Below are positions 17,576 through 33,686 of a DNA stretch of 34,056 nt, piece by piece. Positions within the stretch are counted from its first letter, which is position 1; every line of letters begins with the position of its first letter. Both the position numbers and the translations under genes were made by a program. The notes below the pieces were generated by a model. That model was not told where the DNA came from and ran no database searches. It was given only the letters and a program-made list of their open reading frames with translations. The DNA comes from Candidatus Abyssobacteria bacterium SURF_5 (GTDB taxonomy: Bacteria > Abyssobacteria > SURF-5), in NCBI GenBank assembly GCA_003598085.1, contig QZKU01000064.1, forward strand, positions 1-34,056, written 5' to 3'.

Positions 17576-20338
17576 ATGCTCAACCTTTCAGAAGAAAAAC
17601 GACAGGAATACCTGCAGATCGCCATCGGAATAGGGATCGGGCTGATCTTCTTTCTGCTTTCCTTCACCGTGCCGTACGAGCGCGTTGAATTCCTCTCGCT
17701 CGACGCCAGATTTAACCTTCGCCCGCCCATACAGCAGAACCCGGATATCGCCACCATCGATATCGATGACAGGGCATTGAGGGACGAGGGCAGATGGCAG
17801 GATTGGACCCGCGACAAGCACGCTCGTGTCATCGACGTGATCCATTCAGCAGGCGGGGCCATGGTGGGCGTGGATATTTATTTCTCAGAAGACAGTCAGC
17901 AAGTTGTGCATCTCCAGGACGTCCTGCGCGCTAGCTCGCTTGATGAAGTTGTAGGTTCGCTTCGCGATTACGATGCCGAACTCGCTGCCGCTGCCAAAAA
18001 AGCAGGCAGCATCTACTGGGGCGCTACCTTCATCTTGAATGAGGGCGACGGAAGCGAGCGGCCATCAGAACTGGCCGAAACCAATTATTCAAGGTTATCG
18101 CACGACGTTCTCGAGTTCCTTTTCCGGAGAGGCTCATGTGTGGTTTTTGACGCCAAAATGACCTGCTCGGTCCCGGACGCTGTTGCGCCGCAAGCCTTTC
18201 CGATACCGTGCCTTGTCGAGGCTTCTCGCGGGATCGGATTTGCGCAGATCGTGCGAGAGGCAGACGGCCTGGTCCGCAAGTACCCCACCTTCATCCAGTA
18301 TCGCGCGCCGGAGGATGAGGAGCACGTTTACCTCTTCCCATCCATGGGACTGGCTATGGCGTGCGAGTATCTCCAGGTCCCGTTGAAAAATCTCCGCCTT
18401 CACTTCAATAAGCACATCGAGATCCCTGACGCCATCATGCCCGATGGTTCCCGGCGAACTCTGCGCATACCAATCAACCAGCGCGGGGAGATGATTATCA
18501 ATTGGATAGGCGATTTTAAAGACGCTTTCCGCCACTATCCATACTCCTCTCTTCTTCAGTTGCAGGACCGCGAAACCCTCAGCAGGATTAAACATTTTCT
18601 CTCGCTTCAAGACACTGCCATTTTCGATGACCCCGTCCTGCTAATGAATGCAACTGCGTCTGCTTTTCCGGGGGTTGATTCCGTTCCTGAATGTATCGCT
18701 GCCATTTACGGAGCAAGAAAATATGAGGAGGCTCTTGAATCCGGAACCAGCGAGTTCTCGCCCGCCTTGTTCCAGCAGGTTTTTGCAATCGCACCGGAGG
18801 ATGCCCCCGCTCTTTTCGAAGGGCAGGCCGAGGTATTTGAAAACGTGCGCGGACACTATCAAATGTTGCATTTCCTGAAATCCAATCCGGCGATATCACT
18901 TGAGGACGCCGCCAAAGCAACTCAAACGAACCCCGGGGCGGTTGATAGTCACTACCGCCGCATCCAGGCCCTATTGCGGGCAGGCGGACCTCAGCCCTCC
19001 GACAGGCCGCTCTACTTTCCCGAGCCGGTTATGTTGGAGGGGAAAGAGATTTCCCTGAACGAGCTGAAGGGGGGAGTCTTCTTTTACGGGCTGACAGCCA
19101 CAGGAACGCACGACCTCAACCCGATGCCTTTCAACCCACGCTATCCCATGGTCGGCGCCATCGCAAATGTTTTCAATACCATAGTGACCGCTCAGTTCAT
19201 CACGCCCTTCGCCTCTCGATGGAAACTCCCGATCTTCGTTTTCATCGGGTTCTTTACCGCTTATATACTTTCTTCGCGAACTACCATCCGCGGGTCTCTT
19301 TTCACGATGCTATTTCTTGTTGCGTACCTCCTTTTTGCCTACTGGCTTTTTGTAAACAGGCGAATTTGGGTTGATGTGGTCGGACCCGTGGGCACTATCC
19401 TGGTGTCCGATGCCGTGATCGTCTGGTACAAATTCAATACAGCCGAAAAAAAGAGACGATTCATTAAGAGCGCCTTCGAACATTATATGAATCCCGCGGT
19501 CGTTGAACAGATTGCCAAGAATCCCGATATGCTGGAGTTGGGCGGAAAGGAAATGGAATTGACCGCCTTCTTCTCGGATGTGGCGGGATTTACGACTATA
19601 TCCGAACAATTGAATCCCCCTCAGCTTGTCGAGTTGCTGAATGAATACCTGACGGCGATGACCGATATCGTACTGAAATATAACGGCCTTCTTGATAAGT
19701 ACGAAGGCGACGCGATCATCGCGGTCTTCGGCGCGCCTATCCACTATTCCGACCATGCCGCAAAAGCATGCTTCGTGGCTCTTGACATGCAGGAGAAGCT
19801 CAAGCAGATGCGTGAAGGATGGAAATCCGAGGGCAAGCCCCAACTGCACGCCAGAGTCGGCATTAACTCTGGGCAAATGGTGGTCGGAAACATGGGCTCA
19901 AAAACCCGCTTCGATTATACCGTCATCGGCGATTCCGTCAATCTTGCCTCCCGGCTGGAAGGCGTCAACAAGCAGTACTCGACCAGTATTATGATCAGCG
20001 AATTCACCTATGCCCTCTGCAAATCCGACGTCCATGTGCGCGAGATTGATCTCATTCAAGTGAAGGGGAAGGCCAAACCCGTAAGCATTTATGAAGTGTT
20101 GGGACGCGCAAGCGAATCGCTTCCACCCGGGCTGGAAGAAGTGGTGAACCATTACCTGATCGGTCTGCAGGCCTACCGAAAAAAGGCCTGGCAAGAAGCG
20201 ATCAAAGCCTTCGAGCAGGCCCTCGCAGCGGTTCCCGATGACGGCCCTTCGCTCACATACCTGAATCGATGCAGGGAATACCTATCCGCGCCGCCTCCCC
20301 CGGATTGGGACGGCGTCTATGTAATGACAACAAAATGA
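17576..20338 (+). CDS. CHASE2-domain membrane adenylate cyclase
   Basis: The 920-residue protein has an N-terminal membrane helix (about 14-32) and a CHASE2 sensor outside the cytoplasmic membrane (about 35-540; [32 protein letters not shown]). Three membrane helices (about 548-618) precede the class III cyclase domain (about 655-840). Both metal Asp residues (D668 in [10 protein letters not shown]712 in [10 protein letters not shown]), the purine-specifying Lys708 and Asp786, and the transition-state Asn789 and Arg793 are all present, so ATP cyclisation to cAMP is likely. A TPR-like tail follows (about 850-905). The CHASE2 region is unusually long: residues about 333-481 add a helical insertion. 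It starts a new unit after the terminator and is followed by dtd 16 nt downstream. Confidence 0.9.
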
Positions 20339-20354
20339 TAGACGACAAGAACCG

Positions 20355-20804
20355 ATGCGAGCTGTAATCCAGCGGGTAGAAAGGGCAGGAGTCACCGTCG
20401 CCGGGACGACTGCCGCTGAAATCGGGCAGGGGCTGCTCGTGCTCCTCGGAGTGGGCAAAGAGGACGGCGAGGAAGACGCGCGTTACATGGCCGACAAGAT
20501 ATCGGGTCTCAGGATATTTGAAGACCCCGAAGGCAAAATGAATCTGTCGGTTCATGATGTGGGCGGATCGGCGCTCGTCGTCTCTCAGTTCACCCTGTTC
20601 GCCGACTGCCGGAAGGGAAGGCGCCCTTCATTCACCGAGGCCGGCGACCCGGACCTCGCGCGGCGACTGTATGCAATGGTAATTGAATTCTTGCGAAAGC
20701 GGCATGTCCCTACCGCCGAAGGTGTGTTTCAGGCTGCTATGCAAGTTGAGCTCGTAAACGACGGGCCGGTTACAATCCTCCTCGACAGCAAGAAGAGTTT
20801 CTGA
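20355..20804 (+). CDS. dtd: D-aminoacyl-tRNA deacylase
   Basis: The 149-residue protein is full length for the Dtd family and carries its hallmark [17 protein letters not shown], with the Ser-Gln-x-Thr motif, and near the C-terminus [11 protein letters not shown], where the cross-subunit Gly-x-Pro motif is expected (here G-P-V-T). Dtd removes D-amino acids (and glycine from mischarged tRNA-Ala) from tRNA in the cytosol. It begins 16 nt after the cyclase stop, with no clear promoter in between, so co-transcription is likely. The start [13 protein letters not shown] is typical of the family. Confidence 0.95.
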
Positions 20805-20823
20805 CACAAAGGAATAATTGGAG

Positions 20824-23373
20824 ATGCCAAAGACAATCGATTCACCCTTCGAAACCGTTTATCTCGTCAACCACTCCCATATCGATCACACCTGGTGGAA
20901 TTCTCCTGAAATATGCTCGCAGCGCAATGAAGAGATAATAAATGAAATTTTGTCGCTTGCGTCGGCTGAGCCGGAATTCAAATTCTCGTACGAAACAACC
21001 GCCGGCCTGGTTCGCTATCTGGAAAAGTATCCGGATCGAAAAGAAGAAATAGCCGTTCTCCTGCAACAGCGCCGCCTTGATGTGGGCGGCATGTTCGTCT
21101 CCGCAAACGATGACGTCTGCTCCGAGGAGGCGATCGTTAGAAACTTCTATTACGGCGCCGGCTGGCTCATAAAAACCTTCAATTATTCCCCCAAAGTGGC
21201 AAAGGAATTCGATACGCCCGGCCACCCAATGCAGCTCCCGCAACTCGTTCTCGATGCCGGAATGAAAGCGCTCGTGATCACACGAGGACCGCAAGGGGGG
21301 TTCTCCTGGACCGGTCCCGACGGTTCGGAACTCCTTACTTACTGCGTGCCCTACAATTGGTCCTACTGGCGACGGCTGGGGGTAGATTATGAGGAAACGG
21401 CAAAGAATTTGCCGACTGAACTGGCGCGAGCCGCTCAAAAATTCGGCGGTCCTGAACTCGTCATTCCCGACGGCGATGACATGACGCTCCCTAATCCCGC
21501 CCTGGTGGAAATCTGCAGGCAATGGAACGCGAATTATTCTCGTCCGAAACTTCGGCTTGCCACTTTCGACGAAGTCGCCGATATTCTTGCAAAACGTAAA
21601 TTCCAGCCACGCTCTGGAGACATGCCCAATTTGTGGATTGTGATTCACACTTTGCAAGCCGAAACCACCCGTTACCTGAAGACGCTGCAGGGCATATTGC
21701 CCTCGGTCGAGGCTCTCTGCACGATCGAGTGCATTCTGAAGGGCGATTTTAAACGCTATCCTGCGGCCGGTATCGATGCGCTGTGGCAGCGCGCGCTACT
21801 TGCTGCCGATCACAATTGGGGCGGTAAAGACCAGGCCCGCGGCGGGGCTGAGGGCGATGAGCACAAGCGAAACCTCGTTCTAAAGAGCGTTCGGGAAGGT
21901 AAAGCGCTGACCGAAAACGCTTTCTTCGGCATTGCAAAGTCCGTGATGACAGCGGATCCGAAATTCGGGATGCCCGTCCTCGTCTTCAATCCTGGCTCGT
22001 GGAGACGCGACGATATCGTTTCCCTCGACCTGAATTGCGGCGTGACGGGCCTGCAGGCGATTGAGGTTGTGGACGCCGATGGCGCTCCCGTCCCCGCCGG
22101 CTACGAGGTTTCGGAACGGCACAAGGATGGTTCCATTCACCGCTTGACCGGCGAATTCCTCGGCCGGAACGTGCCTTCTTTCGGTTACTCGACTTTTTAC
22201 ATAAAGCCACTCCTGGAGAAAAAGGGCGACGAGCCGTGCCCGCAAGACGGACGTTCCATCGAGAATGAATTTTATCGGGTTACCTTCGCCGAAGACGGCA
22301 GGTGCATCGAGAGCCTTTATGATAAGGAATTCGATAGGGAGTTGGCCTGCCAGGCCGCGGCATCTTTCGGTCCGGTAGAGTTCGAGTTCGGCACGTTCGA
22401 GCTATTCGGGGTCGGCCTGAAGCTCTCCGTTCCCGACCAGAGCTATTTTGAGAATCCGGAAAATGAGGGTTCGGGCGAGTCCGTCGAGCCGACAGGGGAG
22501 CTTTTCCGCGCCGCCGATTCTCCCGCCAAAATCGGCTTCTCGTCCCGCGGAACTCTGTCGCGCTCGCTGACAGCCGAGGGCGAATTCGCCGGTTCAATCA
22601 GGCGCCAGAAGGTGGTTCTGTACGAGGGGCTGAAAAGAGTGGATCTCCATGTGGAACTCGATTGGAGCGGAAAGTCGAATGTCGCGCTGTTCCTGCAGAT
22701 GCCAAACGCGCTGATGAATGGACAGAAATATATGGGCGTCCCATTCGCCGTCCACAGGGACGGCGATGAGTTAGCTGACTTTTGGGTCGAGGAAAACCTG
22801 CCCGTCAAATTCAAAATCCGCGGCATGCAGGATTGGCTTGCCTTCGAAAGCGAAGACGTTGGACTTGCAATCGCATCCCGGTGGCCCGTGGTCGATTTGA
22901 CTGCCATCCCGGCATTCCCTCTGCTTTGGACCAACGACAACAGCGGATTCTTTTTCGGCGAGCGATACCGGCAAAAAGGAAATCACTGTTTTTCCTTTAG
23001 CCTGACCTCCTACAAAGGCTCATGGTCGGAGAACAACATCCACCTCTGGGGAAAACAATGGGCGAAGCCGCTGCTGAGTTACTCCGGAGACGCCTCACCC
23101 GAAACCGGCCGGCATTCCTATCTGTCGATCGATGCGCCCAACATCATTCTCTCCGCCTTCAAAAAGGCGCGGGACGAAGACGCAGTCATCGTCAGACTCT
23201 ATGAGACGATCGGCAGAAAAACGAGCACCGAATTATCGACCTCATTCCCATTTCAAGAGGCGCGGGGTGCAAATATAACCGAAACTGCGTCAAAGAAGAT
23301 TCCAGCGGCAAAAAAGTCAATCAAGTTGAAGTTCCGGCCCTTTGAAATAAAGACGATCAAGCTCGTTCTTTAG
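20824..23373 (+). CDS. GH38-type alpha-mannosidase-like glycoside hydrolase
   Basis: The 849-residue protein matches glycoside hydrolase family 38 in layout. The N-terminal HSHIDHTWW supplies His19 and Asp21, and EFDTPGHPMQLPQ contains Asp130 in the position of the catalytic nucleophile and zinc ligand. His275 (VIHTLQAETTR) fits the fourth ligand, and long C-terminal beta domains follow. The motifs are divergent (DTPGH for the usual D-x-FGH), so sugar specificity is uncertain. No signal peptide is seen, suggesting a cytosolic enzyme. AAAGGA lies 10 nt upstream of ATG 20824; TTG 20818 is an alternative start. It follows dtd by 19 nt, probably in the same transcript. The role may be turnover of mannose-containing glycans or glycosides (inference). 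Confidence 0.82.
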   Translation: MPKTIDSPFETVYLVNHSHIDHTWWNSPEICSQRNEEIINEILSLASAEPEFKFSYETTAGLVRYLEKYPDRKEEIAVLLQQRRLDVGGMFVSANDDVCSEEAIVRNFYYGAGWLIKTFNYSPKVAKEFDTPGHPMQLPQLVLDAGMKALVITRGPQGGFSWTGPDGSELLTYCVPYNWSYWRRLGVDYEETAKNLPTELARAAQKFGGPELVIPDGDDMTLPNPALVEICRQWNANYSRPKLRLATFDEVADILAKRKFQPRSGDMPNLWIVIHTLQAETTRYLKTLQGILPSVEALCTIECILKGDFKRYPAAGIDALWQRALLAADHNWGGKDQARGGAEGDEHKRNLVLKSVREGKALTENAFFGIAKSVMTADPKFGMPVLVFNPGSWRRDDIVSLDLNCGVTGLQAIEVVDADGAPVPAGYEVSERHKDGSIHRLTGEFLGRNVPSFGYSTFYIKPLLEKKGDEPCPQDGRSIENEFYRVTFAEDGRCIESLYDKEFDRELACQAAASFGPVEFEFGTFELFGVGLKLSVPDQSYFENPENEGSGESVEPTGELFRAADSPAKIGFSSRGTLSRSLTAEGEFAGSIRRQKVVLYEGLKRVDLHVELDWSGKSNVALFLQMPNALMNGQKYMGVPFAVHRDGDELADFWVEENLPVKFKIRGMQDWLAFESEDVGLAIASRWPVVDLTAIPAFPLLWTNDNSGFFFGERYRQKGNHCFSFSLTSYKGSWSENNIHLWGKQWAKPLLSYSGDASPETGRHSYLSIDAPNIILSAFKKARDEDAVIVRLYETIGRKTSTELSTSFPFQEARGANITETASKKIPAAKKSIKLKFRPFEIKTIKLVL

Positions 23374-23523
23374 AGCACCCTCTTTTCTGCCATTCCCGCG
23401 GAACCTTGCCAAAGCTTTCTTTAGGCCGCGTGAGTCGTTCTTCAATTGTGCCCCACCTGTGTCCTTTTCCAAGAAGCAATGTTAGACTGAATTTATACAT
23501 TCATTGCCACAGTCATACTTATC

Positions 23524-23775
23524 ATGATCGGCAGGTGCACTTTGCTGAAATTCTATCTCGTTTTCGTCTTGTCACTCGCTTCCCTCGTCTCTGTTGGCTG
23601 TGCCCATGCTCAAACCGCGCCGGACTCTCTGCCGCCGGAACCCATTGAAATTGAGACGCCCGTTGAGGGCGAGATACTCCTCGTCCTTTCTTCTGATATC
23701 AGTCTTCCTCTTCCGGCGGAGATGGAGGAATCGGCATCAAGCGGAAATAATCTTTCTTCTCCAGGATCGAGATAG
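23524..23775 (+). CDS. Small putative lipoprotein
   Basis: The 83-residue frame has a hydrophobic segment (LLKFYLVFVLSLASLVSVGC) ending in a lipobox-like VSVGC, followed by a short Pro/Glu-rich tail without globular features. ATG 23524 is the first start; TTG 23542 would also fit the signal peptide. There is no visible ribosome binding site, and a TATACA at 23494-23499 has no matching -35. It may be a real small lipoprotein or a chance frame; the well-formed signal peptide favours the first. Confidence 0.5.
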   Translation: MIGRCTLLKFYLVFVLSLASLVSVGCAHAQTAPDSLPPEPIEIETPVEGEILLVLSSDISLPLPAEMEESASSGNNLSSPGSR

Positions 23776-23866
23776 AGGGGCTGGCGAGAAAGCAGACCGC
23801 GGGGAGGTGACTGTCAAGTGTTCTGCCGCATTGAATGGCCCCGACGCCCACGAGCGTTTAGAGGCG

Positions 23867-24349
23867 TTACAGTGTTACGAGCTCCGTCCGCATCGTGAGA
23901 AGATCGAGAAAAGCAATCGTGCTCGTGCCTTCCAGCCACCCGCAGCACTCGCCGGGATTGATAAGAAGCGTTTTCCCTTCCACGATTTTCGCGCGGTGAT
24001 TGTGTCCGCATATTACAACGTCGTATGCGCCTCGCGACGCAAGCGTCTCCGCTATATCCGGATAATGCGTCAGCGCGATCATCTTTCCATCCACTTTAAG
24101 CTGATGGATGCCGTCGTAAAGCTGACCGATCCCCTCATATTTTTTGGTCAACAATAATTTGTCGCCGTCGTTGTTGCCGAACACGCCGATCAGACCGCAG
24201 TTCAGACGCCCCAGTTCTCGTGCGGTAAACGGAGCGACGTAGTCGCCGGCGTGCAGCACGAGGTCTACACCGCGCCCAAGGAAACAGTCCACGGCTTTCT
24301 TCAGCATGATCATGTTGTCATGAGTATCCGAAAGAATTCCCACAAGCAT
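23867..24349 (-). CDS. YfcE/MJ0936-type metallophosphodiesterase
   Basis: The 160-residue protein shows the calcineurin-like metallophosphatase motifs in order: SDTHDN (metal Asp and His), HAGDYVAP (bridging Asp), GVFGNNDGD (GNND), ALTHYP and CGHNHRA. This is the standard length and set for small YfcE-like phosphodiesterases, which hydrolyse phosphodiester bonds of unsettled physiological substrates. The gene starts 1 nt after the stop of the YkgJ-type gene, so the two form a two-gene operon read leftward from the promoter near 25168. Confidence 0.9.
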   Translation of the reverse strand: MLVGILSDTHDNMIMLKKAVDCFLGRGVDLVLHAGDYVAPFTARELGRLNCGLIGVFGNNDGDKLLLTKKYEGIGQLYDGIHQLKVDGKMIALTHYPDIAETLASRGAYDVVICGHNHRAKIVEGKTLLINPGECCGWLEGTSTIAFLDLLTMRTELVTL

Positions 24350-24350
24350 T

Positions 24351-25130
24351 TCAGTATCCCCGCTTTTGCCTGGCCAGCCTCAACTTTGCTTGCCACCGGC
24401 CAAACAGCTCCCCGATCTCCCGAAATGTCACCTGCTCTTCTCCCCTTGGGAGCGAATCGAAATCATATAGAATGCGCTCGACCGATTCGCGCTCACCTTG
24501 CGGCAATGAGGTGAAACGCACGGGCGAGTCCAGGAGTACCCGCATCCATGCAAGGAATTGCCTGTTCGCTGCCAGAAAGGCTGAGGCGCGAGAAGCTGAA
24601 AGCCAGTGTCCGACAGTTTGTACCCGATCTCCTTCGGTTCCACACAAGGGTCGCCTGAAGAACCACGTGCGCCTGCCGTTGACGGTGCTGCACCCCAGCG
24701 GGTGAAGACGGCACATTGTCGGTCGATGATCATAAATGCTGCACAACCGTTTTCCCTCGCGGGCTTCCTCGAGAAAATGGCATTCCACCGCGTCGCTTGA
24801 TCCTGAGCGGAATCGCAGAAAGGCCGCGGGCACGGTATCATCACGCGCCAGCCCAAAGATATCCAAAAAATCGGCTACGGGACCGAAGCCGAAGAGCCGC
24901 GCAAAGGACTCTTGCCTGATCTCAATTATCCCGCTCTTGAGCAAATCAGATGTCGTCCGTCCCGTCGCTTTCCGAAGCCTGAGAATATCATAGGGGCTCA
25001 GGACGATGGTGAAGGCGCCGCAGCACCGCCCGCATGCCTGACATTCGAACCGAAACGTGTCCTTCTTTCCGGAAAGCAGCCGAACAGTGTCCCCTGTGGC
25101 ATTCATTGCAGTTTTGAAATCGATCCCCAT
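24351..25130 (-). CDS. YkgJ-family cysteine-cluster protein
   Basis: The 259-residue protein has the YkgJ-type arrangement: CQACGRCCGAF near the N-terminus and, later, CHFLEE, RLCSIYDHRPTMCRLHPLGC, which supply enough Cys for an iron-sulfur or zinc cluster. The family is broadly spread and its role is not established. The annotated ATG at 25130 lies only 9 nt after a good -10 element on this strand, so the message may be leaderless or may start translation at ATG 25106 (residue 9). No ribosome binding site is seen for either. Confidence 0.82.
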   Translation of the reverse strand: MGIDFKTAMNATGDTVRLLSGKKDTFRFECQACGRCCGAFTIVLSPYDILRLRKATGRTTSDLLKSGIIEIRQESFARLFGFGPVADFLDIFGLARDDTVPAAFLRFRSGSSDAVECHFLEEAREGKRLCSIYDHRPTMCRLHPLGCSTVNGRRTWFFRRPLCGTEGDRVQTVGHWLSASRASAFLAANRQFLAWMRVLLDSPVRFTSLPQGERESVERILYDFDSLPRGEEQVTFREIGELFGRWQAKLRLARQKRGY

Positions 25131-25139
25131 CGAATTGTA

Positions 25140-25168
25140 ATTATATACGAGATGGAAATGAACGGCAA
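25140..25168 (-). promoter_or_regulatory. Minus-strand promoter for the YkgJ/YfcE pair
   Basis: On the minus strand TTGCCG (25168-25163), a 17-bp spacer and TATAAT (25145-25140) are present. The expected start of transcription is within about 3 nt of the annotated ATG at 25130. Confidence 0.5.
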
Positions 25169-25184
25169 AATGGTCCGCGGTTCA

Positions 25185-25213
25185 TTGACACTGAAATACG
25201 CCTGTGCTAAAAT
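25185..25213 (+). promoter_or_regulatory. Strong promoter for cinA with extended -10
   Basis: TTGACA (25185-25190), a 17-bp spacer and TAAAAT (25208-25213) preceded by TGC, an extended -10 element. Transcription near 25220 gives a leader of about 20 nt carrying AGGAGG (25227-25232) before ATG 25240. It lies back to back with the minus-strand promoter. Confidence 0.7.
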
Positions 25214-25239
25214 TCGCTGAATTTTCAGGAGGAATTCTC

Positions 25240-26514
25240 ATGAATGCAGAAATCATCATGATCGGGTCTGAACTCTTGTTAGGACAAATCATCGACACCA
25301 ATTCCGCTTTTCTCGCGCAGGAACTGGCCAAAATCGGGGTCAACCTTTATTTCAAAACAACTGTGGGCGATAACCCGGTCCGAATGGCCGACGTTTTTCG
25401 GGCGGCCCTCTCGCGGTCCGATATCATCATCGCCTCCGGCGGGCTGGGACCGACCGAAGACGACTTGACGCGAGAGGTTGTCGCCGAGGTGATCGGCGAA
25501 CCCCTGGAATTCAGGCAGGACCTGTTCGATCAAATCGAGTCCTTGTTCAAGCGGCACGGATTCACCATGAGCCCGAACAACCGCAAACAGGCTTTCATCC
25601 CCCGGAATTCACAGGCAATCGAAAATCCGGTCGGTACCGCGCCCGGGTTTATCGTCGAGAAACAGGGGCGACTCATCGTCACACTGCCGGGCGTCCCCCG
25701 CGAGTTGAAATTCCTGATGGAAACGGTTGTTATTCCCTTCCTTCGCGCACGGTTTTCGTTGGGTGAGACGACCATTGCTTCGCGCGTCCTCAAAATCTGC
25801 GGGATGGGCGAAAGCAGGGTTGACAGTGTGGTCGGAGACCTTATCAGGGAATCGTCCAATCCGACCGTCGGTATTCTCGCCGAACCGGCACAGATCTTGC
25901 TCCGAATCACGGCCAAGGGTGCAAGTCCTTCGGAGGCCAAAGCAAAAATCGCGGCCGTAGAGGCCGAAATCCGCAACAGGCTCGGCCGGCTCATTTTCGG
26001 GACCGACGCTGAAACACTGGAAGGTGTTGTAACGGCCCTACTTGTGAAGGATAAAAAGTCTGTGGCGCTCGTGGAGACCTTGACCGGCGGCGCGATTGCC
26101 CAAGGGTTTGTCTCCGCCGGAGGCAGCACGCTCACAGAATCATTTGTGGCTCTCGGTGACGAAGCTCGTCGCAGGATGGCCTCGATTGACGTGGCGGAAT
26201 GGAATGAAGCCAGACGCAATCCAGCGGCCGTTTCCAAGAGACTCGCGGAAGGGATGCGGGCAAAAAGCGGCGCTGATATAGCCGCCGCATCTCTCGGAAT
26301 TCTGCCGGGAAGCGATGAGCTTGAAGGAGATGACAAGGTGTCGGGTAAAACGTGTATCGCCGTCGCGTCCGAGAGCACAAGCACGGCATGGGAATTCCGT
26401 TTTGCAGGATCCGATCCGGTCAATCAGGTGCGTGCCACAGCCCTTACCATTGAAATGCTGCGGCGCTTCCTGATCGGATACGTTGACGACGAAATGCGAG
26501 CCCGGATGAAGTGA
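25240..26514 (+). CDS. cinA: CinA-family protein with a degenerate C-terminal domain
   Basis: The 424-residue protein has a well-conserved N-terminal MoaB/Mog-like (COG1058) domain: IIMIGSELLLGQIIDTNSAF, IASGGLGPTEDDLTREV, and LPGVPRELKFLM. In this family that domain acts as an ADP-ribose pyrophosphatase. The C-terminal domain, normally an NMN amidohydrolase, is eroded: the usual ESCTGG is ETLTGG, GSS is GST, and the GIAGP loop reads GILPG, so amidohydrolase activity is doubtful. ATG 25240 follows AGGAGG at 7 nt. The stop lies 14 nt before the ATG of the kinase gene, and co-transcription is likely. Confidence 0.87.
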   Translation: MNAEIIMIGSELLLGQIIDTNSAFLAQELAKIGVNLYFKTTVGDNPVRMADVFRAALSRSDIIIASGGLGPTEDDLTREVVAEVIGEPLEFRQDLFDQIESLFKRHGFTMSPNNRKQAFIPRNSQAIENPVGTAPGFIVEKQGRLIVTLPGVPRELKFLMETVVIPFLRARFSLGETTIASRVLKICGMGESRVDSVVGDLIRESSNPTVGILAEPAQILLRITAKGASPSEAKAKIAAVEAEIRNRLGRLIFGTDAETLEGVVTALLVKDKKSVALVETLTGGAIAQGFVSAGGSTLTESFVALGDEARRRMASIDVAEWNEARRNPAAVSKRLAEGMRAKSGADIAAASLGILPGSDELEGDDKVSGKTCIAVASESTSTAWEFRFAGSDPVNQVRATALTIEMLRRFLIGYVDDEMRARMK

Positions 26515-26528
26515 CAGGAACAGGTAGT

Positions 26529-28292
26529 ATGTATTGCGATCATTGCGGTGCGGAAAACAGGAATAACGCAAATTTCTGTCATAAATGCGGAACCGATCTG
26601 TCGGCCCTTCTAAAGAACGAGAAAAAAAGTGCAGTTGCCACACTCTCTGATGCCCCCGCTCCGCCTCCCGTGATCGATGAATCTACTGCGCGTGCGGGAT
26701 TCCAACAGATCCTGAGCGGCCGCTATGAGCTGAAAGAATTTCTGGGACGCGGTGGCATGGGCATGGTCTTTCGAGGTTATGATAAACAGCTTGGAATGGA
26801 CCTGGCCCTGAAGTTCCTCTTGAGCCGCTATGCCGACGACCTTGCTGCCATTGAAAGCCTGAAACGCGAGGCCAAGGCCGCAATGCGACTGGCGCATCCG
26901 AATATCGTGCGCCTCTATAATTTCGAAGACACCCCTCAGTTGAAGTACCTCTTGATGGAGTACGTCAGAGGAGAATCGCTGGCCGCGCTCGCCGCGAAAA
27001 GAACCAATCGCCGCTTGAGCGAACCGGAAGTGATTCGGTTCATGTGCGAAATCTGCGAGGCCCTCAGTTATTCCCATAAGGAGAACATCATCCACAGGGA
27101 CATCAAACCCGGCAATATCCTCGTCACGACCGAGGGCAAGGTGAAACTCGGTGACTTCGGTATCGCTCTGATCAACGAGAAGGCCGTTGATCTGGAGACG
27201 GACGAAGTGTCCGGCACTCCTTCATACATGAGCCCCGAACAGACTCTCGGCCAGCCGCTCGATGGACGGACCGATCTCTATTCTCTCTCCATCACCATGT
27301 ACGAGATGCTGGCCGGTAAACCGCCCTTTCGGGGGAAGCATTCGCGTTTCAATTACATCAGCATGGTCCCAGACCCCATCGAAGGCGTTTCCGACTGGCT
27401 CAACGCAATTCTCTTGAAATGTCTCCGGAAAGAACCGGAAGGCAGATGGAGCAGCGCGGAAGAACTGAGAGATGTTTTGCTCGGCAAGAAGGAGGGTGGC
27501 CTGGCGCTCAAGGCCAAATTTCGGCCGTGGTGGGTTGTGGCTGAAGACCTCAAGCGAAACGAACTCCCCCCAACCGCTCCCGACCCGGAGCCGAAGGAAG
27601 ATATTGCTCCACCGGTATTGCCCCGGGCTGAAGTGCAGCGGACACTGGCGCCTTCTTCCGCCAGCCGCACAAAACAGCGGGTCGAAAAAGTCGGGCGGTA
27701 CGCCGGCTTGCTGGAAAACGCATCCGAGCGCGATCAGGCCCGAATCGCTTACGGCACTACTGCCGGTATTATCGCCGGCATCCTTCTTTTCCTGATCTCC
27801 AAGGAAACGACCGGCATTCAGTCGCCACGGGTTTTCCTCCATTTCGGGTTTACGATATACGGAGGATTTCTGGGAGTCGCTGTGGGTTTCGCGCATAAGA
27901 AATTCATCCGGGGCGCTCTCTCGTTTTCTTTTGGCTTATTCGGGGGAATTCTCACGGGCCTGTTTATCCCAAACGGGTTGGAAGGCTCTCTGATTCAGGT
28001 CCAGCCGCCAGTGAGCGCGACCGCGTGCGCCGCCGTTATCGGAGCTTTGCTCGGAGTGGCTGACGGAATATACTGCCAATCGATCAACTATACCGTTCGG
28101 TGTGCCGTTTGGGGGGCGTTCGGGGGTGCCGCAGCAACCATTCTCTTCATGCTGATCCGGCACCTCTTCTCGGCCTTCTGGTCACCGCTCCCTCATTGGG
28201 TGATCCTCGGACTGCTGTTAGGGTTCTCCATTATGATGGGAATCGGATTGGCAAGAAAACCGGCAATAGAAAAGTATCCGAGCCAGCAGTAA
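26529..28292 (+). CDS. Zinc-ribbon Ser/Thr protein kinase with C-terminal membrane domain
   Basis: The 587-residue protein begins with a zinc ribbon (Cys3, Cys6, Cys17, Cys20). A Hanks-type kinase domain (about 65-320) follows with every key element: glycine loop GRGGMG, Lys95 in ALKFLL, catalytic HRDIKPGN with Asp191, DFG Asp209, and GTPSYMSPEQ in the activation segment. After a Pro-rich linker, about five Gly-rich membrane helices fill residues 410-580. It should autophosphorylate and phosphorylate cytosolic partners while anchored in the inner membrane; partners are unknown. ATG 26529 is chosen because it starts the zinc ribbon directly; GTG 26511 overlaps the cinA stop and would add six residues. 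Confidence 0.88.
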   Translation: MYCDHCGAENRNNANFCHKCGTDLSALLKNEKKSAVATLSDAPAPPPVIDESTARAGFQQILSGRYELKEFLGRGGMGMVFRGYDKQLGMDLALKFLLSRYADDLAAIESLKREAKAAMRLAHPNIVRLYNFEDTPQLKYLLMEYVRGESLAALAAKRTNRRLSEPEVIRFMCEICEALSYSHKENIIHRDIKPGNILVTTEGKVKLGDFGIALINEKAVDLETDEVSGTPSYMSPEQTLGQPLDGRTDLYSLSITMYEMLAGKPPFRGKHSRFNYISMVPDPIEGVSDWLNAILLKCLRKEPEGRWSSAEELRDVLLGKKEGGLALKAKFRPWWVVAEDLKRNELPPTAPDPEPKEDIAPPVLPRAEVQRTLAPSSASRTKQRVEKVGRYAGLLENASERDQARIAYGTTAGIIAGILLFLISKETTGIQSPRVFLHFGFTIYGGFLGVAVGFAHKKFIRGALSFSFGLFGGILTGLFIPNGLEGSLIQVQPPVSATACAAVIGALLGVADGIYCQSINYTVRCAVWGAFGGAAATILFMLIRHLFSAFWSPLPHWVILGLLLGFSIMMGIGLARKPAIEKYPSQQ

Positions 28293-28426
28293 CGCGGACA
28301 ATCAACCCGGGACACCAGCCATGATCCCTCTCCATTCGCTTCATCTTGTCGCTTCTGTTATATTATGAAAAGTCGAAAACACACGCGGAAGAAACTTAGG
28401 AAAATCGTGGTACAGTGGAGGGGTAT

Positions 28427-28702
28427 ATGAATCCTGAAATGAAAGTTGCCGCTTTTATGCGTTTTGAATATGTCGAGGGGGCGCTCGACGCGAAAACGCG
28501 GGAACTCGTCCTTCTCGCTACCGCGGCTATTACCGGCTGCACTCATTGAACGAAAGCTCACTTTGCAGGTGCAAAGAAAGCCGGCGCCTCCGAGGATGAA
28601 ATCCGCGAAACCATGGCAATGGCGATGATGGCGGCAACCGGAAAGGTGCGCAATTTTTTGACCGATACAATCGAGGGTCTGGAACTGAAACGGAAAGAAT
28701 AG
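28427..28702 (+). CDS. AhpD-like selenoprotein (in-frame UGA as Sec41)
   Basis: Reading through one TGA at 28547-28549 gives a 91-residue protein of the carboxymuconolactone-decarboxylase/AhpD family: ALDAKTRELVLLATAAITGC, then THU-TKAH, then FAGAKKAGASEDEIRETMAM. The family's redox motif is C-x-x-C-x-x-x-H; here it is Cys38-x-x-UGA41-x-x-x-His45, so the UGA stands exactly where the second Cys belongs. The frame stays family-like for 50 residues after the UGA, which argues against a real stop. GGAGGGG at 28417-28423 sits just before the ATG, and a SECIS-like hairpin follows the UGA. A peroxide- or thiol-linked redox role is inferred. The alternative is a nonsense mutation or a sequencing error in a Cys codon. 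The M24 peptidase gene begins 13 nt downstream. Confidence 0.82.
28556..28581 (+). promoter_or_regulatory. Candidate bacterial SECIS hairpin
   Basis: CTTTGC (28561-28566) pairs perfectly with GCAAAG (28571-28576) around the loop AGGT. GCT (28556-28558) and AGC (28579-28581) extend the stem beyond a 2x2 internal loop. The loop begins 18 nt after the last base of the UGA and has G as its second base, consistent with the known bacterial SECIS form (4-16 bp upper stem, G among the first two loop bases, about 16-37 nt from the UGA). Confidence 0.75.
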
Positions 28703-28715
28703 ATCGCCTCGTTCG

Positions 28716-29879
28716 ATGTCCATCGAGAGAATTGACGTTCTGCGCAGTCGGCTGGCCGAAATGAATATAGATGCCGCCGTGCTGCTCTACTCGCGTGATC
28801 TGCTGTATTATGCCGGCGTCTCAATCCCAAGCATCCTTTTGATAACACCGCAGACGGCGCGTCTCTATGTTCGCCGCGCCATGGAATTCGCTCTGCATGA
28901 TGCCACCGTCCCCGATGTGGTGCCCGACGGTAACTTCCGACAGGTGGCCGAACAACTGGCCTCCGAGAAACTGCAAGATGCCCGCATCGGCCTCGAACTG
29001 GACGTCATTCCCGCCGAATTGTTTCTGAAAATCCAATCGGAATTGACTGGCGCCGAATTGGTCAATATCAGCCCGCACATCCTCAATCAGCGGATGATAA
29101 AGGACGAGGATGAAGTGAAACTGGTGAAGGCCTCTGCCGCAATGATCGATAAAGCACAATCTCGCGCTCGCGAAGTCATTCGCGCGGGAATGCCGGAAAT
29201 AGATATGGCTGCCGAAATCGAGGCGGAACTCCGCCGGAATAAGCACGAGGTCGTTCTGATCAACCGCAGATTCGACGCGCATACCTTCTACGGCATGATC
29301 GGGTCGGGCGAGACCCTCTCGCGCTTTGCAGGATTCGCCAATGTCGCCTCCGGCATCGGCCTCAGCCGCGCCATGAGGATCAGCGCGTGCGACCGGATCA
29401 TGAAACGCGGCGACCTCGTGATGATCGATATCACCGGCTGCTTCCACGGATACATCACCGACGTCACCCGGATGTACGTGATTGGCCGGGCGACCGATAT
29501 CCAGAAAGACGTCTTCAATGAACTGTGCGTCGTTCAGGACGAGATATTCTCCAGCATCCGGCCGGCAACACCGGTTGCCGACGTTTATGAATGCGGACGC
29601 GCGGCCGCGGAGAAAACGAAATTCGGCCCCTATTTCATGGGATATCACGAGAAAGGCAGATTTGTCGGACACGGAATCGGCCTCGAACTCGACGAGCCGC
29701 CCGTCATCGGGCCGGACGATCCCACCATAATACGGGAAAACATGACGCTCGTGGTCGAAATCAACACCATCATTCCCGGCTTCGGCGCCATCAAGCTGGA
29801 AGACTCGTTCATTGTTCGCTCGAACGGCATCGAGCTGCTATCGAATACCGAACGGAAACTGTATGAAGTGGATGTGTGA
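28716..29879 (+). CDS. M24-family peptidase, Xaa-Pro aminopeptidase-like
   Basis: The 387-residue protein has the creatinase N-terminal domain (about 1-130) and the pita-bread catalytic domain. Five metal ligands are present in order: Asp238 and Asp249 (DITGCFHGYITDVTR), His319 (FVGHGIGLELDEPP), Glu348 (VVEINT) and Glu362 (KLEDSFIV). This is a full dinuclear metal site, so it should be an active cytosolic prolidase or Xaa-Pro aminopeptidase. It begins 13 nt after the selenoprotein stop; its stop lies 23 nt before the ATG of the next gene. No clear ribosome binding site is seen for the ATG, which would fit coupling to the upstream gene. Confidence 0.9.
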   Translation: MSIERIDVLRSRLAEMNIDAAVLLYSRDLLYYAGVSIPSILLITPQTARLYVRRAMEFALHDATVPDVVPDGNFRQVAEQLASEKLQDARIGLELDVIPAELFLKIQSELTGAELVNISPHILNQRMIKDEDEVKLVKASAAMIDKAQSRAREVIRAGMPEIDMAAEIEAELRRNKHEVVLINRRFDAHTFYGMIGSGETLSRFAGFANVASGIGLSRAMRISACDRIMKRGDLVMIDITGCFHGYITDVTRMYVIGRATDIQKDVFNELCVVQDEIFSSIRPATPVADVYECGRAAAEKTKFGPYFMGYHEKGRFVGHGIGLELDEPPVIGPDDPTIIRENMTLVVEINTIIPGFGAIKLEDSFIVRSNGIELLSNTERKLYEVDV

Positions 29880-29902
29880 CCGGAAAAGAAGAAAGGATCT
29901 CC

Positions 29903-30436
29903 ATGAAACTTGATGCTTCAATTTTTGTCCACCCCTCGGCCGTCCTGCACGGAAACGTGACCGTCGGCAAGTACAGCAGCATCTGGGCGAATGCTGTTAT
30001 TCGGGCCGATTTCAATACCATCGCCATCGGGCGATACACAAACATCCAGGACCACGCCACAATCCATTGCTCTCCGACCAACCCTACCGTCATCGGCGAC
30101 TTTGTCACCGCCGCACACTCCTCTATCATGCACGCGTGCACGGTCGGAAACCGCGTGATGATCGGCATGGGAGCCACCATCCTGGATGGCGCACGGATCG
30201 GCGACGGCACCATGATCGCCGCCAATGCGCTCGTTCGCGAGAATATGAACGTCCCTCCAAACTCGCTTGTCGTCGGGGTCCCCGGCAGGATCCTCGAGGG
30301 AAAAGGGCGGCCGGAATTCATCGAGCAGAACGCGATCTCGTATTACGTCCTCTCCCGAAAATATATGGAAGGCGTAGATTCGATCTCGCCCGCCGAATTG
30401 CTCAGCCTGATGCAGAAATTCGAGGCGCAGGATTAA
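29903..30436 (+). CDS. Gamma-carbonic-anhydrase-like left-handed beta-helix protein
   Basis: The 177-residue protein consists of hexapeptide repeats of the left-handed beta-helix (VGKYSSIWANAVIRAD, IGDFVTAAHSSIMHACTVGN). His51, His72 and His77 fit the zinc-binding trio of gamma-class carbonic anhydrases; the last two keep the five-residue spacing. It resembles the short YrdA/PaaY group. These are often inactive or weakly active as carbonic anhydrases, so the reaction remains open. ATG 29903 follows AAAGGA at 29892-29897 and overrules the upstream GTG 29876. Its 3' end overlaps the convergent rtcA gene by 4 nt. Confidence 0.88.
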   Translation: MKLDASIFVHPSAVLHGNVTVGKYSSIWANAVIRADFNTIAIGRYTNIQDHATIHCSPTNPTVIGDFVTAAHSSIMHACTVGNRVMIGMGATILDGARIGDGTMIAANALVRENMNVPPNSLVVGVPGRILEGKGRPEFIEQNAISYYVLSRKYMEGVDSISPAELLSLMQKFEAQD

Positions 30437-31473
30437 TTCACGCTTCCAGAGCACTCGATCCGGACAAGAGCGTCTTCCTTTACCTCGAATTCCACCGGCA
30501 GGAACTGCTTTATCACATGCATGTTCGTCTTTGCGTGGCCGGTCAATCTCGGCGTGGTGATGACCGACCTCCCCTTCGCGAGAGCCATAAAGAGCAGAAG
30601 TTGATCCGAGAGATGCTCATCGACCGCAGCGCCGGATCGCACTGTCTCAATGAGGGCATTGGCGGCTTCTTCTCCAACCTGCTCCGACGGTTTTCCCCTC
30701 TCGCCGATTGAGTCGCCCCCGATTATCGCTCTCGCTCCTGTCTCCGCCCACAGAACGATTCCCGATCCCGGACAGACCGCATCAACATATTCTCTTTCAA
30801 CCTGCGCCTTCAGGCCGGCCTGTCCGAGCGTCTGCCCGGCCGCCCGCGCCTGCCTGTCGGCCACTTGCGCCTTCTGGAGGTGAGTACTTGCAACCGATAT
30901 CCCTCTGACGATGCTTGCCTCTCCCGGCTCAGTCAGAACAAGCGGGCGACGGTAACGGCTGGGATGCCCGGTTATCTTTACACGCGCTCCGCCCTTGGGG
31001 AAAAAACCGTGCCGCGCTATTTCCAATTCGGCCGGGTATCCCATGCTCTCCAGAAGCGGCAGCAGCACGCGCTGAATTGCCGGCAGGGGAGGAGCCCACC
31101 GCGCAAAAGTGGCGCCGCCAAGAATGCTCACCCTCACGTCGGTGTCCGCCAGGCAAATCGGCGCGCTGACCGATTGGAATAATAGACCGATCGCGCCGGC
31201 CGTCGCTATAGTCACAGAGATATCTCTCGGTTGTATTCTTCCCGGATGCATTTCGATTTCAGTCGAGCCCGTAAAGGCATTATCCAATCGGCCCGAGCAG
31301 AGCAAAGCAACCGCCTTCAAACTCTCCAGATGCTGAGTCATCAGGCCGGGCTTCGATCTGCCGGCCCTGACATTAAACACCCGCACCGGCTTTCCCGTTA
31401 TCGCAGAAAGCGCCGTAGCTACGCGCAGGATTGCGCCGCCGCCCTCAAGATATGAGCCGTCAACCTCGATCAT
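30433..31473 (-). CDS. rtcA: RNA 3'-terminal phosphate cyclase
   Basis: The 346-residue protein is full length for RtcA, beginning DGSYLEGGGAILRVATALSA and containing RAGRSKPGLMTQHLESL, GHGFFPKGG-like RHGFFPKGGARV, and the catalytic His287 in VDEHLSDQLLLFMALAKG. The enzyme converts an RNA 3'-phosphate end into a 2',3'-cyclic phosphate, using ATP through an adenylated His. The usual partner rtcB is not nearby in the window. The gene is convergent with the gamma-carbonic-anhydrase-like gene and overlaps it by 4 nt, so no terminator separates them. Its upstream gap (31474-31664) is shared with the LUD-domain gene. Confidence 0.93.
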   Translation of the reverse strand: MIEVDGSYLEGGGAILRVATALSAITGKPVRVFNVRAGRSKPGLMTQHLESLKAVALLCSGRLDNAFTGSTEIEMHPGRIQPRDISVTIATAGAIGLLFQSVSAPICLADTDVRVSILGGATFARWAPPLPAIQRVLLPLLESMGYPAELEIARHGFFPKGGARVKITGHPSRYRRPLVLTEPGEASIVRGISVASTHLQKAQVADRQARAAGQTLGQAGLKAQVEREYVDAVCPGSGIVLWAETGARAIIGGDSIGERGKPSEQVGEEAANALIETVRSGAAVDEHLSDQLLLFMALAKGRSVITTPRLTGHAKTNMHVIKQFLPVEFEVKEDALVRIECSGSVN

Positions 31474-31542
31474 TTATGCCCGCCTCAATTTCCTTAATCC
31501 TAAAATACAATCCCTTACTATACTATCATCTCGAAATCCCGA

Positions 31543-31555
31543 ATGCCGACGGCAT
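31543..31555. repeat. 13-bp palindrome in the rtcA/LUD gene intergenic region
   Basis: ATGCCG and its complement CGGCAT are separated by one base. It lies between the divergent rtcA and LUD genes and about 40 bp upstream of the LUD -35, so it is a possible operator; nothing ties it to a regulator. Confidence 0.3.
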
Positions 31556-31596
31556 AAAAATCCTGCAACTGCGACCACCTGCAGCAGCGGAAGCAC

Positions 31597-31625
31597 TTGA
31601 CGCGCTGTGATCTGTATTATATAGT
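31597..31625 (+). promoter_or_regulatory. Promoter for the LUD-domain gene
   Basis: TTGACG (31597-31602), a 17-bp spacer and TATAGT (31620-31625). Transcription would start near 31632, 33 nt before the ATG, with GGAGG as ribosome binding site. The sequence AAGCACTTGAC at the -35 recurs in the promoter at 34024. Confidence 0.6.
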
Positions 31626-31664
31626 TGTCGGGTATTTCTGAATTATGAAAGATGGAGGATTCGC

Positions 31665-32279
31665 ATGGACACCATTCAAAAAACCGTCGATGCGCTTACG
31701 GCAAACAACATCGAGTGCATTCTCGTGCAGACAAAACAGGAAGCTCTGGCGAAGACGCTCGAGATGATTCCGGAAGGCTCGACCGTCGGCCTTGGCGGAT
31801 CGGTTACGGTCGAACAAGTAGGATTGCTCGAACGGCTCCGTTCCGGCAAGTATACCCTGTATGATCAGTATGAGGCAGGCATCGATATGCCTGAGAACAT
31901 GAAGCGCAGGAAACAGGGCCTTACAGCTCAATTCTTTGTCGCCGGCACAAACGCGATAACCTCAGACGGACAACTTGTGAATGTGGACGGGCTTGGCAAT
32001 CGGGTCGCCGCGCAAGCCTTCGGGCCGGAAAAGGTTATCCTGATTGCCGGAACAAATAAGATCGTCAAGGATGTCCATGACGCATTTGATCGGCTGCAGA
32101 ATGTTGCGGCTCCCACAAATGCGAAGCGGGTGAATTACATGACTCCCTGCCAGGAGACCGGCGTCTGCATCGATTGCGACTCGCCCATGCGCATCTGCAA
32201 TATCTATACGATCATCCGTAGAATGATGTTCCCCGGCCGGCTCACGGTGATCCTGGTGAACGAATCGCTCGGTTATTGA
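31665..32279 (+). CDS. LUD-domain protein (LutC/YkgG-like, DUF162)
   Basis: The 204-residue protein has the LUD fold markers: STVGLGGSVTVEQVGLLERL, FFVAGTNAITSDGQLVNVDG, GNRVAAQAFGPEKVILIAGTN. It ends with a cysteine set C-x5-C-x2-C-x7-C (TPCQETGVCIDCDSPMRIC), typical of the stand-alone members. Classical LutC works with LutA and LutB in lactate oxidation, but neither is present here and the stand-alone branch has no agreed role. The Cys set could bind a metal or an iron-sulfur cluster (inference). A GGAGG ribosome binding site precedes the ATG, and a PaaI-type thioesterase gene follows 39 nt later, probably in the same transcript. Confidence 0.85.
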   Translation: MDTIQKTVDALTANNIECILVQTKQEALAKTLEMIPEGSTVGLGGSVTVEQVGLLERLRSGKYTLYDQYEAGIDMPENMKRRKQGLTAQFFVAGTNAITSDGQLVNVDGLGNRVAAQAFGPEKVILIAGTNKIVKDVHDAFDRLQNVAAPTNAKRVNYMTPCQETGVCIDCDSPMRICNIYTIIRRMMFPGRLTVILVNESLGY

Positions 32280-32318
32280 AAGCGCGGCCGAAAGAGTTCG
32301 CACAGAGGAGCAACAAGA

Positions 32319-32783
32319 GTGAATGAAAAGGCGCCGCAGGTGGATTATACCGCACTGCGCAATTTTGCAAACCAGGTCCCGATGTACAAACTCATCGGGA
32401 TGGAAGTGATCGATGTCGGTCCCGGTTATTCTCGATTCCGCCTTCCATTTCGCAAAGAGCTTACTCAGCCGTTCGGAGTAATGCATGGTGGCGCATTGGC
32501 CAGCGTCGCCGATTCCGCCGTGGCCATCGCCTTGTGGGGGCTCCTCGGTGCAGACAAAATATTTACAACAATCGAGATGAAGATCAACTACATTGCCCCA
32601 GTCGGCTCGGGAGAAGTAATAGCGGAAGGGAAAATAATCCACTGCGGCCGGCGGACCGCAATCGGGGATGTTACCGTGAAGGATCAGAACGACCGGCTGG
32701 TCGCCAAGTGCCTCGCTACTTATATCATCTTGCCCGCCGAAAACAGCTCGGCAGCGCCTCCCATATGGAAGGGGAATTCCTGA
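32319..32783 (+). CDS. PaaI-type hotdog-fold thioesterase
   Basis: The 154-residue protein has the hotdog-fold signature: PFGVMHGGALASVADSAVA, with the active-site helix, then TTIEMKINYIAPVGSGEVIA and DQNDRLVAKCLATYII. Members hydrolyse acyl-CoA thioesters in the cytosol; the acyl group cannot be deduced. GTG 32319 is used, with AGAGGAG 8 nt upstream. It is convergent with the amidohydrolase gene, with only 3 nt between them and no visible terminator. Confidence 0.9.
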   Translation: MNEKAPQVDYTALRNFANQVPMYKLIGMEVIDVGPGYSRFRLPFRKELTQPFGVMHGGALASVADSAVAIALWGLLGADKIFTTIEMKINYIAPVGSGEVIAEGKIIHCGRRTAIGDVTVKDQNDRLVAKCLATYIILPAENSSAAPPIWKGNS

Positions 32784-32786
32784 TCG

Positions 32787-33686
32787 TCACAGGGTCGGAA
32801 TCGGACCGATCAGTTCCTCCGCATTCTTCCATAGTAAGCGATCCCGCAGCCATTGATCGCCTTCGGTCAGCCTCAGCGCCACCGCGAGCGAGTACCGTTG
32901 CCTGCCGAATGGCCAGTCAGTCCCGAAAACTACCCTGTCGCCGCCCACTTTTTCGACGGCGCGCCGGACGGTTCGCACCGGTTGAAAACTCGTCTCCAGA
33001 TATACATTCTCGAAAACCTGCGCTATCTCTATCGCTGTCCGGGCTTCAAACATCCCCATGTGCCCGAGGATGAATTTCACCTTCGGAAAAGAAGCAATTA
33101 TTTTTGTATAATTCGGCAGGCGCCCGAATGCTTCGGCCTGTGATTCGGGAACGTAATATGTGGTTCGTCCTGAATGAAACAGTATTGGTAGATTATACTG
33201 ACTGAATTCCTCGATGACCTCAAAGCATTCCTTGCTCTCCGGATGGAAATCCTGGATGATCGGGTGCAGCTTCAATCCTCGGCATCCCGCTTCAACATAG
33301 GTTCTCAACCGCTCGACTCGTTTCGGATCCCGCGGGTCGACCGAAGCAAACGGAATCAGGCAACTGCTTTTGCCGGTGTGCGACAGAAGCTCCTGCGTGC
33401 TCCCATACGGTTCAATCGGATGACACACACTGAAGGATACGTTATTCTCTTTCATCTCCTTCTGCAGGTCGTCGGCGTTCGCCATCGCGTTCCGCCATTG
33501 CGTTTCACGCGCTATCCTTTTTCTGAGAAGACGGTAAACCGGGTCCTCTGATTTGCCATGAGGAGCCGGCCAATTGAATTTCTGCCATTCGAAGAGACGA
33601 ATCAGCACCCCATACGAGGGCTCTATATCAGAGCCGCCGGAGAAAAGAATGTCCTGCGCGTGCGTGTGCATGTCTATTATCTTCAC
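32787..33686 (-). CDS. Amidohydrolase-2-family TIM-barrel hydrolase or decarboxylase
   Basis: The 299-residue protein has the metal-dependent amidohydrolase pattern: DMHTHAQD at the N-terminus (metal HxH), GLKLHPIIQDF, LPILFHSG, FILGHMGMF, and FGTDWPFGR containing the catalytic Asp. This is the family of aromatic-acid decarboxylases and lactone hydrolases (Pfam Amidohydro_2), and the exact reaction is unknown. No promoter or ribosome binding site upstream of 33686 is convincing. Confidence 0.82.
   Translation of the reverse strand: MKIIDMHTHAQDILFSGGSDIEPSYGVLIRLFEWQKFNWPAPHGKSEDPVYRLLRKRIARETQWRNAMANADDLQKEMKENNVSFSVCHPIEPYGSTQELLSHTGKSSCLIPFASVDPRDPKRVERLRTYVEAGCRGLKLHPIIQDFHPESKECFEVIEEFSQYNLPILFHSGRTTYYVPESQAEAFGRLPNYTKIIASFPKVKFILGHMGMFEARTAIEIAQVFENVYLETSFQPVRTVRRAVEKVGGDRVVFGTDWPFGRQRYSLAVALRLTEGDQWLRDRLLWKNAEELIGPIPTL

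Follow-up and report, generated by a model that had tools for sequence, protein, structure and literature searches.

A predicted CxxU selenoprotein of the AhpD/CMD fold in Candidatus Abyssobacteria bacterium SURF_5

Selenoproteins of the AhpD/CMD fold with a CxxU motif are already known, having been predicted since 2005. CMD domain-containing and AhpD-like selenoproteins were reported from the Sargasso Sea (PMC1088965), and AhpD-like 1 and 2 selenoproteins were described in Global Ocean Sampling (PMC2398784), in line with the statement in the original prediction that AhpD-like selenoproteins had appeared in metagenome surveys. A distant AhpD homolog of Geobacter was reported to be a CxxU selenoprotein (PMC1794560), and a 2026 selenoprotein inventory holds several AhpD/CMD entries (PMC13188914). 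In M. tuberculosis AhpD, protons are relayed by Glu118, Cys130, His132, Cys133, and His137 (PMC3141380).

Here we analyzed a window of 34,056 nucleotides from Candidatus Abyssobacteria bacterium SURF_5 (the whole of the stretch, contig QZKU01000064.1), which carries a putative AhpD/CMD-fold selenoprotein gene at positions 28427–28702 of the plus strand, assigned by its frame, PF02627, and its orthologues. This gene, ahpD(Sec), starts at the ATG at 28427 and stops at the TAG at 28700–28702, spanning 91 codons; its product would be a small protein of the antioxidant type. A single internal TGA at 28547–28549 (+), predicted to be read as selenocysteine (Sec), forms codon 41 and is followed by 50 codons up to the stop. 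With the TGA written as U, the motif is C38-T-H-U41-T-K-A-H45 and the read-through product is MNPEMKVAAFMRFEYVEGALDAKTRELVLLATAAITGCTHUTKAHFAGAKKAGASEDEIRETMAMAMMAATGKVRNFLTDTIEGLELKRKE. Re-reading the ORF showed the originally predicted coordinates and C-x-x-U motif to be exact, and the TGA does take the place of the second Cys of C-x-x-C-x3-H. A strong ribosome-binding site had also been claimed; a region with GGAGG lies 5′ of the ATG (approximately 28413–28420, +), and the GGAGG is kept in both orthologues. On the minus strand, an antisense ORF (28358–28723) is open for 121 aa, but it was rejected as a candidate, since a shadow of the CMD frame would show the same apparent conservation.

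The phylum is represented in the genome collection that we searched by three genomes, from three genera of one family. PF02627 (CMD) matches residues 12–72 of the window protein, across the TGA, with 67.2 bits against a cut-off of 23. Purifying selection persists past the TGA, where the original prediction saw family-like sequence for 50 codons. TIGR00778, the AhpD core domain, is passed (51.2 vs 27.8 bits), and TIGR00777, the AhpD subfamily proper, scores below its cut-off (25.5 vs 191.95 bits). The best NCBIfam match is NF041047, the GSU3128 family (seleno)protein, in which residues 9–86 align to positions 7–83 of the 84 in the model; its 77.6 bits fall under the curated cut-off of 110. The orthologues give a similar picture, and all three phylum members stay below this cut-off. 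The resemblance to the GSU3128 family (Geobacter, PMC1794560; PMC13188914 Table 1) lies in the stand-alone small AhpD-type domain, the CxxU motif, and the known Sec form, whereas the window protein differs in its sub-threshold NF041047 score, its phylum, and its conserved kinase/M24/gamma-CA context. GSU3128 was not found by name in the literature searched. The AhpD-like 2/CMD selenoproteins of Global Ocean Sampling and the Sargasso Sea share pfam02627 and CxxU, and are likened here by domain and motif. Since this kind of protein is known and the score lies under the NF041047 cut-off, we regard ahpD(Sec) as a new addition from a phylum with few sampled genomes; it may belong to a group that is sister to GSU3128. 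The AhpD-type Sec domain is also shared (52–54 bits) with the ArsM-AhpD two-Sec fusion NF041537 and with MduS NF045649, but the window protein consists of this domain by itself and lacks the methyltransferase part. In another genome, an AhpD-like match (G086:C35:198183-198377, minus strand) lies within an open frame of 372 aa that contains one TGA; guessing from length alone, this may be an ArsM-AhpD Sec fusion of the NF041537 kind.

The proton relay E-x11-C-x-H-C-x3-H is present with Sec for the second Cys (E26, C38, H40, U41, and H45). All five positions have the same spacing as in M. tuberculosis AhpD (PDB 1gu9) and PA0269 (PDB 2o4d), with which the window protein also shares the TIGR00778 core domain. 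It differs from M. tuberculosis AhpD in having Sec at the position of Cys133 and in its length (91 vs 177 residues), and sequence similarity to 1gu9 is weak (E 0.009). The best solved relative by both sequence (E 3e-12) and fold is RclX (PDB 7y4r), which has Cys-x-x-Cys where the window protein has Sec instead. An AlphaFold model, for which the alignment was shallow, is helical throughout. Its confidence is moderate, with a pLDDT of 77 (near 90 for residues 21–60) and a pTM of 0.61, and its nearest PDB folds are CMD/AhpD proteins. Cys-type AhpD paralogues are also encoded in the genome.

Across homologues, residue 41 is Cys or Sec, with Cys in nearly all of the non-Sec ones. This check had been proposed with the original prediction, and the pattern holds but for one short outlier, L110 (G215:C16:2272-2472). 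This AhpD-like frame of 74 aa has Leu (TTA) in place of Sec/Cys and may be a homologue without catalytic activity or a match that is misaligned. A search of 386 genomes recovered three further AhpD homologues with an internal TGA, from other and distant families, and in each the TGA aligns to codon 41. A small tree places all six Sec forms on one side of a branch (99/98), though the residues encoded by the shared hairpin may help this grouping and one branch is long. No relatives of ahpD(Sec) were found among the viral contigs.

We are confident that the gene encodes a CxxU redox selenoenzyme of the AhpD/CMD fold, with its UGA at codon 41 decoded by SelB under the direction of a hairpin and with a predicted redox activity. 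We infer Sec insertion at residue 41 from the sequence, and likewise the redox activity, the reaction, the attacking residue, the substrate, and the reductant. The UGA would be read by SelB and Sec-tRNA(Sec), as directed by the downstream hairpin. Sec41, replacing Cys133 of M. tuberculosis AhpD, would then act as the attacking residue; Cys38 would serve as the resolving thiol, and protons would be relayed by E26, H40, and H45. In the catalytic cycle, the Cys-SH/Sec-selenolate pair of the reduced form would most likely alternate with an S-Se bridge as either a peroxide or the disulfide of a partner is reduced. Most likely, the enzyme is a selenol peroxidase or a disulfide reductase.

It is possible, if somewhat tentative, that the protein is a true selenoprotein whose main role is not direct peroxide reduction but that of a thiol-selenol reductase or of an adaptor like AhpD for AhpC, and that it perhaps serves its conserved neighbors. 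AhpD is an adaptor for AhpC, and the peroxidase activity of PA0269 is weak (PMC3141380). The neighborhood is conserved, which would also suit an adaptor. Upstream on the plus strand are genes for a CinA-like protein (25204–26514) and a Ser/Thr protein kinase (26511–28292), and downstream on the same strand are an M24 family metallopeptidase (28716–29879), 13 nt past the ahpD stop, and a gamma-carbonic-anhydrase-like hexapeptide protein (29876–30436). The order cinA, kinase, ahpD(Sec), M24, and gamma-CA is collinear in all three genera, although a further 292-aa ORF may sit between the kinase and ahpD in the relative G002. The M24 and carbonic-anhydrase-like neighbors named in the original prediction are present, and their gene order is conserved. 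Because of the 13-nt gap and the 4-nt overlap between the M24 and gamma-CA genes, co-transcription of ahpD, M24, and gamma-CA is likely. However, neighborhood conservation by itself shows no functional link, and no AhpC gene was identified beside ahpD(Sec) at the locus. Positions 17576–33686 of the window are largely collinear with contig C10 of G002, which belongs to a different genus; this stretch includes genes for a LUD-domain protein and an RNA 3′-terminal phosphate cyclase on the opposite strand.

For the selenoenzyme reading, the decoding machinery is complete. The genome encodes a tRNA-Sec with anticodon UCA (67.5 bits, cut-off 47), SelA (588 bits) and SelB (381 bits) adjoining on one contig, and SelD (388 bits), all scoring above curated cut-offs. 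A look for selA, selB, selC, and selD in the source genome had been suggested at the outset, and selA, selB, selD, and tRNA-Sec are all there. SelB was found in both relatives within the phylum and is also encoded by the three distant genomes with Sec homologues. The selD gene itself (L025, G000:C42:20143-21069, minus strand) has an in-frame TGA within TSGGUACK, so that SelD is also a predicted selenoprotein.

Downstream of the TGA is a SECIS-type hairpin, CTTTGC-AGGT-GCAAAG, at 28561–28576 (+), with its apical loop at 28567–28570; the original prediction made no mention of it. The hairpin (CUUUGC-AGGU-GCAAAG in the RNA) starts 11 nt past the UGA, and it agrees with every constraint of the bacterial SECIS model of PMC13188914: a 6-bp stem, a 4-nt loop, G second in the loop, 17 nt from the TGA to the start of the apical loop, and a folding energy of −11.4 kcal/mol for the 42 nt following the UGA. 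An Rfam search of the window gave no match. We rejected the hairpin as proof by itself, as the SECIS model is also satisfied by 19–32% of sequences that recode this peptide synonymously, and a 57-nt stretch folds differently and no better than shuffles. Its conservation is more telling. In the three genera no change is seen at any of the four third codon positions that lie in the stem pairing, whereas the remaining codons for conserved residues divide into 6 same and 37 different (p = 0.001); for two-fold codons alone, invariance is 3/3 at paired positions vs 5/15 at others (p = 0.07). The 6-bp stem is perfect and equally distant from the TGA in all six Sec homologues, including the three of distant families, and one U-A pair is changed to C-G in those three. 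As this covariation concerns one pair, and perhaps one event, it backs the hairpin but falls short of proof. Right after the Sec, the sequence (H/R)FAxAK is found in all six Sec forms (including L089, L090, and L092) and in none of the listed Cys forms, which is what one would expect if these codons were fixed by the hairpin. It seems that the SECIS hairpin dictates these protein residues.

The machinery and hairpin bear directly on whether the UGA could be decoded as some other amino acid, or be read through by a near-cognate tRNA that yields little extended protein. The frame would be conserved regardless of the residue inserted, but we consider such decoding highly improbable. TGA serves as the normal stop of 16 of the 27 genes taken in the window, more than any other codon, so the genetic code as a whole is unchanged and a genetic-code change can be ruled out. 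The genome also has the full Sec machinery, the hairpin is at the SECIS position, and nearly all non-Sec homologues have Cys at the aligned site.

Decoding as Sec is also supported by conservation of the TGA itself, which occurs at the identical codon of ahpD in all three phylum genomes. The AhpD proteins of the two relatives are 69–76% identical to the window protein. Across the three genera dN is 0.10–0.17 both before and after the TGA, while synonymous sites are near or at saturation, a pattern indicating that purifying selection acts on the frame past the TGA. Between ~17.6 and 33.7 kb, the portion of the window that the relatives cover and to which the scan for conserved in-frame TGA was limited, codon 41 is the sole in-frame TGA kept as TGA in both relatives with the frame otherwise open; in the remaining rows of the scan, the frames resemble shadows of known genes. 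To turn an ordinary Cys-type AhpD gene into this one by nonsense mutation or sequencing error would take just one change from TGC or TGT, and the assembly is a draft of 145 contigs, but such a pseudogene or artefact is hardly conceivable and is ruled out by the conserved TGA, since it would not explain the same codon in three genera under ongoing selection with synonymous sites near saturation, nor the TGA in the same column of three distant Sec homologues. A read error at the TGA is very unlikely, because the two genomes from other genera, which were assembled separately, have it too. Together, the machinery, the conserved TGA, and the SECIS-like hairpin support the selenoprotein reading of the ORF.

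One extension of this reading, which we consider doubtful, is that the three phylum genomes share a separate, Sec-only AhpD-fold subfamily that is sister to GSU3128, in which the hairpin, not the protein, would dictate (H/R)FAxAK and whose members would work with the kinase, M24, and gamma-CA proteins. General knowledge of selenoproteins is unchanged by ahpD(Sec). The curated GSU3128 model does not take in the new Sec sequences and could be broadened by adding them. The gene is a clean case of a selenoprotein gene that gene callers likely truncate or miss, and it documents the use of selenocysteine in a phylum represented by three genomes.
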